From the NCBI GenBank assembly GCA_937870915.1, contig CALMZQ010000041.1, positions 1 through 45,621 on the forward strand: a stretch of DNA of 45,621 bases. Reading direction: 5' to 3'. Positions 24,586 to 25,842 of this stretch are shown piece by piece; the first letter of the stretch is position 1; each line of letters starts with the position of its first letter. Below the pieces are notes generated by a model. The model was not told where the DNA came from. It did not search any database and saw only the letters and a list, made by a program, of their open reading frames with translations. The stretch comes from an uncultured Ignavibacteria bacterium (GTDB taxonomy: Bacteria > Bacteroidota > Ignavibacteria > Kapaibacteriales > Kapaibacteriaceae). The position numbers and the translations under genes are program-made.

Positions 24586-25842
24586 TTGGGTGTGCGACTC
24601 CTATTGGTACTCTGTACATCGGTCCTGCTAATGCAGGGAGAACTCATTGCCCAGTCTCAACAGGGTGATGTGGTTGGGTCGTTATCTGGGGCAGTGAACA
24701 AGTACCATGGTGAGCTTTCCGACGACTCCTTCGGACCGGGAGCTCTTCTATCACTGCGATATGCCGCAATGGATCGGCTTTGGATTGAGGCGCGGTTTGG
24801 ACTTGGGGAATATCGTTGGAAGATTACCGATGCGAAACTTGCTCGGTATCCTGATTACTTTGGACAAGGGGCTCACATTGGTGACCTCTATCCTGCGTCC
24901 TTGGCTACGATCGAACCTGAAAACGAAAGTAGAGTCACGATAGGCGACCTCATTGTGAGCTACGTCCTCGTAGATCAGATACCGGCTAGCCCCTTTCTCT
25001 CTGCCGGTGTTGGACTGGTTAACATTGCCCCTTCTACCAGCCAATCACATACCCAACTGCCGAACTCAGCAGCAGGAGTTTATCCTCATACAGTACCGAG
25101 TATCATTATTGGAGGGGGAGTCCAGATCCCAATTTCCCAACGTATCGGCGTACTGCTTCGAGGTGAACACCGGTTTGTCTTTTCAAAGTATCTGGACGAT
25201 ATCTCATACAACGGAAGTAATGATGCTCTAAGCACTTTCTCCGTTGGCTTAACGTATCGCTTTAACGATCCTGAATCTCAACCCTGTGATTGTTGCGCTG
25301 AGTGCATTAGCGAAGACTGTGATGAATGTGGGGATAACAATGTGGATTGCTGCAACAGTGTATCGTGTTGTAAGCAAAGCTGTTTAGCTGATTGTTCTGA
25401 GATGTCATGTTACTGTTGTGCACAATGTTGCTGCTGCTGTTGTGGAAAACAGACTGTAGCAGCGGTTGTACCTTCGCCTGTTTCAGCACCTGTGGCGGCA
25501 CCTGTTACAGCACCTGCACCAGGGCCGGTAACAGCGCCCGTTTCCGGACCGGTTCCGGAGCCAATGGATGTGCCGTGTCCGTCCGGACAGCACCGTGAAT
25601 GTTTCGGACCGCCGGGATACGGAATTTGTGTTGACGACGATCCACCGAAAGGACCTGAACCGATTCTCTGGGAATTGGCTCGCCCCCTTGACGATGGTAG
25701 TCTATTGCGGGAAGTTGACGGTCGGTGGTATCGAAAGCAGATAATGCCAGATGGAACAACGAGGATCAGTAAGGGGCTCCTGCCTTTTGAGGCAACGGAA
25801 TGTAAAGAGTGTAAAGAGAAACAACGCCGGGAGAAGCAATAA
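24586..25842 (+). CDS. Outer-membrane beta-barrel protein with an extreme cysteine cluster
   Basis: The protein has 418 residues. A signal peptide (cleavage likely near ELIAQ) precedes a barrel of about 200 residues that ends in [11 protein letters not shown]. It is closely similar to the barrel of the next gene (shared [14 protein letters not shown] and SYVLVD). Residues 234-286 contain 21 cysteines in 53 positions, ending in six consecutive cysteines (281-286). A Pro-Val-Ala linker follows (about 291-330), then a second Cys-containing segment and a C-terminal CKECKEK motif. The cluster would face the periplasm if the topology follows OmpA proteins. It could bind metal or form a dense disulfide knot; neither is established. 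Unlike its neighbour it has no OmpA domain. The stop overlaps the next start by one base (TAATG). Confidence 0.75.

Follow-up and report, generated by a model that had tools for sequence, protein, structure and literature searches.

A conserved cysteine-rich belt as the spacer of an OmpA-type tether pair in two sister genera of Kapaibacteria-like bacteria

According to the available portion of PMC11648852, OmpA mechanically couples the outer membrane and the cell wall in E. coli. Metallothioneins are described in the available portion of PMC7558416 as folding after metal binding, and Csp1 appears there as a Cys-rich, exported copper storage protein of Gram-negative bacteria, which folds as a four-helix bundle and has a Tat signal. 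For Chlamydia, the available portion of PMC2811131 describes a complex of the Cys-rich envelope proteins OmcA and OmcB with the barrel protein MOMP, and says that peptidoglycan is lacking as the main structural element; MOMP is disulphide-bonded to other proteins according to the excerpt of PMC549562. Here we analyzed a window of 45,621 nucleotides (the whole stretch of DNA under analysis) from an uncultured Ignavibacteria bacterium, in which two adjacent genes on the forward strand encode proteins of the OmpA/OprF kind with a new spacer. The Cys belt that forms this spacer is a real, conserved and unusual feature of an OmpA-type tether pair. A literature search over titles and the beginnings of abstracts found no description of such a combination of barrel and Cys belt.

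Gene 1 (24586..25842, + strand, 418 aa), which was defined from its ORF and from orthologues with 48-68% identity in eight genomes of the same genus, encodes a barrel, a Cys belt, a linker and a tail with five Cys. Its start codon, judged by eye, is uncertain (TTG at 24586 or GTG at 24592). A probable signal peptide (24586..24651, cleavage about A22/Q23, also recognized by eye) opens the protein, and residues 2-16 form a helix in the structural model. The belt (25285..25443) spans residues 234-286 and ends in CCCCCC at residues 281-286. The earlier note had counted 21 Cys among these 53 residues and placed a Pro-Val-Ala linker behind them; the count was confirmed by ORF translation and by the codons (14 TGT and 7 TGC), and the linker indeed follows at 25444..25563. 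Cys makes up 1.06% of the residues in the window's 31 other long ORFs, from which 0.56 Cys would be expected per 53 residues (binomial tail for 21 Cys, 8e-28), and their Cys-richest stretch of this length has 6 Cys and lies inside the neighbouring paralogue, gene 2. The run (TGY)6 occurs once in the source genome (3.3 Mb, assembly 97% complete), namely in the gene 1 belt. The belt of the source genome has no His, and when searched alone it matched no Pfam family at E up to 10, metallothionein profiles included. A match to gene 1 in its own genome (C46) covers only query residues 290-352, which are largely the Pro/Val/Ala linker. Tandem Repeats Finder called no array overlapping the Cys segment. 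Elsewhere in the window, short tandem arrays lie at 110-184, 19060-19113, 20611-20694, 27934-28080 and 45445-45621, mostly between genes; several have 7-base units (GAACAGC, CGTAACT, GAATAGC), and a 12-base array of 14.8 copies, CGTAGGATGGGA, is cut off by the end of the contig.

The barrel that the earlier note had placed N-terminal to the Cys cluster was recovered by structure prediction. AlphaFold2 was run on gene 1 with an alignment of 12 rows, made up of the two window proteins and the protein pairs from five named relatives, all of which are metagenome-assembled genomes (two Candidatus Kapaibacterium, one of them with Lake Pavin in its isolate name, two Ignavibacteria and one Melioribacter roseus; NCBI places Kapaibacterium in Bacteroidota, Kapaibacteriaceae). 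The model has a mean pLDDT of 64 and places eight strands within residues 29-225 (24670..25260); pLDDT is below 50 for the belt and linker (residues 230-328), and residues 335-417 form a small beta domain. The predicted disorder of the belt in a model built without ligand would be in keeping with metallothioneins, but the shallow alignment of 12 rows may by itself account for the low pLDDT. In fold searches the barrel matched a Legionella porin (9nh2, Z 18.0), E. coli OmpA (9a2m, Z 17.8, rmsd 2.6 over 169), NspA (1p4t, Z 17.2) and OprF (4rlc, Z 15.6), while its Pfam score for PF13505 (13.8 bits) stayed below the cut-off of 28.7. An identity as the T9SS protein PorG was rejected (NF052316, 24.4 bits vs. 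a cut-off of 130). OmpA-type barrels have both chain ends on the periplasmic side, so the gene 1 belt would lie in the periplasm.

The C-terminal tail of gene 1 (25564..25839), which was delimited by alignment, profile and fold searches, carries five Cys (C331, C339, C348, C406 and C409). Their pattern of C, C, C and CxxC is invariant in the 13 tails that were aligned among 15 carriers, and the domain is about 88-124 aa long. A profile of the tail found it in 15 of the 123 genomes of the order, which are the same 15 that carry a belt. No Pfam match was obtained at E up to 10, and comparison with the PDB gave nothing convincing either by sequence (best E 0.32) or by fold (best E 0.27, best Z 3.2, model mean pLDDT 71).

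Gene 2 (25842..27194, + strand, 450 aa) has a barrel that is 67% identical to that of gene 1 (25926..26525), a six-Cys motif (26565..26606), a long linker rich in Pro and Val, and an OmpA C-terminal, peptidoglycan-binding domain (26820..27107; PF00691, E = 1e-14, 55.1 bits vs. a cut-off of 27.2). PF00691 was not detected in gene 1 at E up to 1. The six-Cys motif has the form CxxCxC-x(5)-CCC, with x(7) in one case, in 10 of the 11 copies of this OmpA gene from the same genus (g1), the exception being genome G006. The stop codon of gene 1 and the ATG of gene 2 overlap by one base (TAATG); since gene 2 starts inside the stop of gene 1, the two genes, on the evidence of this overlap, are probably translationally coupled.

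The two proteins resemble the OmpA/OprF family in the eight-stranded barrel and in the PF00691 domain of gene 2, and relatives at the same locus that have TSP3 repeats in the spacer are of the same kind; they differ in that gene 1 has no PF00691, ends in the undescribed five-Cys tail and has the Cys belt as its spacer. The spacer of OprF has four Cys, against 13-25 in the belts. SmtA and MymT are small, free, cytosolic proteins, whereas the belt is a domain of an outer-membrane protein with no Pfam match, and its metal binding is putative. The likeness to these bacterial metallothioneins lies in their being Cys-rich and expected to fold on metal, and Csp1 offers a precedent for exported, Cys-rich copper storage, both according to the available portion of PMC7558416. 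Gene 1 differs from Csp1 in having a signal peptide with no twin Arg (by eye), and its belt has no Pfam match. The model gives the belt a pLDDT below 50 and no confident helices. A disulfide lattice has its precedent in the chlamydial complex, as far as the available portions of the two sources describe it. In that complex the Cys-rich OmcA and OmcB are proteins in their own right, whereas the belt is fused to a barrel and its partner gene 2 carries a peptidoglycan-binding domain.

Sixty genomes, the source genome included, were searched for relatives of the locus. Relatives were found in 25 genomes, 20 stretches were taken, and 19 of the relative stretches together with the window were searched for barrels, which gave 15 belt proteins. 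The pairing of a barrel with a Cys-rich segment, for which the earlier note had proposed a search in related genomes, is thus present in 15 genomes, source included, with a belt of 13-25 Cys in 46-90 residues on one member of the pair. The carriers are 9 of 11 genomes of the same genus (g1, source included) and all six genomes of the sister genus (g5). Each belt contains 3-12 CxxC and 3-10 CC, the longest Cys run is 3-10, and acidic residues number 4-21 per belt; runs of 5-10 adjacent Cys occur in 11 of the 15. The belt is on gene 1, together with the five-Cys tail, in g1 and on gene 2, together with the OmpA domain, in g5, where gene 1 has a homologous tail and a short Cys or Cys/His linker (no such linker in G021). 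All 15 complete pairs have the long belt on exactly one partner, differing between the two genera. For the two remaining g1 genomes, the contig of G008 begins inside the locus with the partner outside the view, and the locus of G006 holds the OmpA copy alone and no belt. This single OmpA gene of G006 (L037:2111-3559) has no TSP3, and its linker has six Cys arranged as three CxxC pairs. The belt-less state of G006 is either a loss or an intermediate. No barrel match was obtained at E 1e-8 in three other genomes of the family (G011, G012 and G016), and of the 37 genomes that match at class level only, six were read (one of them cut by the end of its locus), and none of these six has a belt.

The occurrence of relatives lacking the segment had been named as a finding that would speak against it. 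Such relatives exist (G006 and three genomes with TSP3 repeats); since 15 genomes retain the belt, however, the segment is not an artefact; low complexity or a frameshift as its source is ruled out by this retention, by the mixture of TGT and TGC codons and by the lack of a tandem array. The run (TGY)6 is present in 12 of the 23 family genomes. Among the matches listed, 12 such loci were read in frame, of which seven are belts (G014, G018, G021, G003, G002, G007 and G010) and five are poly-Gln or poly-Leu in other genes. Genome G020 has 144 overlapping (TGY)6 matches, against 8 or fewer in each of the other 22 family genomes; among the matches listed these are mostly TGTTGC repeats on many contigs, and the example on L105 reads as poly-Gln/poly-Leu.

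In a tree of the barrels, in which 9 of 29 inner branches are open and branches are long, the barrels of the two g5 genes form one group (support 90/88, not starred). Judged from this tree, the grouping may be caused by gene conversion or by separate duplications. As for the difference of partner between g1 and g5, the belt itself may have moved, or cassettes of barrel and belt may have been swapped between the two genes.

All 15 belts have kept their richness in Cys, while exact Cys positions are demonstrably kept in some subclades only. The belts of G001, G005 and G009 align with 0-1 gap positions, and all 18 Cys are identical in every pair, whereas among the 71-72 other residues 46-50 are; each pair shows 3-7 synonymous changes of Cys codons (the probability of all 18 Cys falling into identical columns by chance is 0.001-0.004 per pair, the pairs not being independent). 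Between G018 and G022, 12 of 13 Cys match (shuffle mean 7.2). Among G000, G003 and G010 the whole alignment scores were reached by 0 or 1 of 500 shuffles, and Cys-Cys matches number 16-17 against shuffle means of 13.7-15.0 and maxima of 18-19 (for G000 and G003, 16 vs. 13.7). For three of the four gapped belt pairs, Cys-Cys matches are hardly above those in shuffles, and this near-shuffle placement outside the trio and the pair G018/G022 counts against a defined cluster.

The locus is syntenic among the relatives. Genes like those at 20687-22980 of the window lie upstream and one like that at 27246-27953 lies downstream in 19 relative stretches, within the limits of contigs and stretches, and some of the syntenic loci have a gap of about 1 kb. 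We take the upstream genes to be folD-like, RluA-like and adenylate kinase-like and the downstream gene to be RlpA-like. At the syntenic place, three genomes from other genera of the family (G013, G015 and G017) carry just one OmpA gene, in which PF18884 (TSP3_bac) lies between the barrel and the OmpA domain (80-109 bits, cut-off 25); PF18884 was not found in gene 1 or gene 2 of the window. TSP3 repeats bind calcium, and because a TSP3 spacer occupies the same locus in three family genomes, the belt appears to stand in place of a Ca2+ spacer. More distant relatives in the order also have TSP3-type repeats (G096 by Pfam, G116 by eye, G052 and G037 by pattern count). The OmpA protein of G096 (L079:1372-3585) has a very long calcium-type spacer of 14 TSP3_bac repeat stretches. 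Calcium-binding TSP3 repeats most likely made up the ancestral spacer at the locus, and on the simplest history the ancestor or ancestors of g1 and g5 would have lost this Ca2+ spacer and acquired thiol spacers. Two of the three TSP3 relatives at the locus (G015 and G017) have a CxxC close to where the TSP3 run ends, a possible seed of the thiol spacer.

To explain these observations, we propose that gene 1 and gene 2 form a pair of OmpA/OprF-type envelope tethers. The barrel would be embedded in the outer membrane and the interdomain spacer would lie in the periplasm, with peptidoglycan gripped by the C-terminal domain of gene 2. A Cys-rich belt on one partner, usually with a short Cys motif on the other, would have replaced TSP3 in the two sister genera, and it would bind soft metals, Cu(I), Zn(II) or Cd(II), in metallothionein-like metal-thiolate clusters. 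Because the belt would fold only once metal is bound, the metal-bound form could both buffer metal at the outer membrane and stiffen the spacer, as Ca2+ does for TSP3. Tethers with a metal-thiolate belt in place of TSP3 are the best explanation and the most likely mechanism, with a probability of roughly 0.45. A broader and more doubtful proposal is a switch from calcium to thiol, in which two Kapaibacteria-like genera would have exchanged a Ca2+-dependent TSP3 spacer for an outer-membrane-anchored, metallothionein-like belt on either partner, so that the mechanical coupling of outer membrane and wall would come to depend on soft metal or redox state. No metal-handling genes were recognized by eye among the ORFs of the window.

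The metal-thiolate belt is ranked first, and second is a chlamydia-like, disulfide-linked lattice, in which the belts, the six-Cys motif and the five-Cys tail would knit the outer membrane to the wall; we consider this possible but tentative. The putative periplasmic position of the belt fits such a lattice, as do the co-encoding of the pair with a one-base overlap in the source genome, the long belt on exactly one partner in each complete pair, and a Cys content that is kept while positions are only loosely kept. However, profiles for DsbB and VKOR found no match in any of the 23 family genomes, while they matched 6 and 3 of the 14 control genomes, respectively. A DsbA-fold protein (PF01323) is present in 12 of the 23 family genomes; its match in seven of the 15 belt carriers is in favour of the lattice, and its absence from the other eight is not. 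The runs of 5-10 adjacent Cys in most of the belts would also be awkward for disulfides. Among these related sequences, 11 of 15 belt proteins have an odd total of Cys in the mature protein, and 14 of 17 partners have an even one. Odd numbers fit intermolecular bonds; taken with the absence of DsbB and VKOR, they lean toward thiolate-metal binding over intramolecular disulfides. This leaning, drawn from gene content and Cys counts, would be compatible with intermolecular bonds or with oxidation independent of Dsb enzymes, since periplasmic thiols can be oxidized without them.

The remaining explanations are less probable. The belt might be a near-neutral flexible spacer whose Cys runs grow by slippage of (TGY)n triplets and whose thiols have no job, which would suit the variation of the longest run from 3 to 10 among genomes, the disorder in the model, the missing belt in G006, the short tandem repeats that are common in the window and the gapped pairs with Cys matches hardly above shuffles. 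This is unlikely, as the Cys codons are mixed with no tandem array called at the belt, all 18 Cys are kept in the trio despite synonymous changes, and the belt persists across 15 genomes of two genera. Still less probable is a belt that serves redox chemistry or electron transfer at the outer membrane by holding Fe-S clusters or c-type haem. The many CxxC and CC pairs could serve it, and a single CxxCH is present in each of the belts of G020, G019 and G014. The belt of the source genome, however, has no His, 12 of the 15 belt proteins, including all nine from g1, are free of CxxCH, and no cytochrome was recognized by eye among the window ORFs. A haem cofactor, which the earlier note had offered as one option, is thus disfavoured, and it was rejected for the protein of the source genome. 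About equally improbable is a covalent attachment site (thioether, S-acyl, or persulfide and sulfur loading) comparable to the cysteine string that gives the eukaryotic cysteine-string proteins their name. The long, uninterrupted stretches of Cys that lie a few tens of residues beyond the barrel would agree with it, but the belts hold 4-21 acidic residues each, and we know of no comparable internal S-acylation of the cysteine-string type in bacteria.

The spacer at this locus has apparently changed from calcium repeats to a thiol belt, with the partner that carries the belt differing by genus, which offers a natural test of the role of the spacer. If the belt forms disulfides, a lattice like that of Chlamydia would exist in these unrelated bacteria, in whose family genomes DsbB and VKOR were not detected. 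Should it bind metal, as the preferred metal-thiolate reading proposes, the belt would amount to a domain of metallothionein type anchored at the outer membrane.
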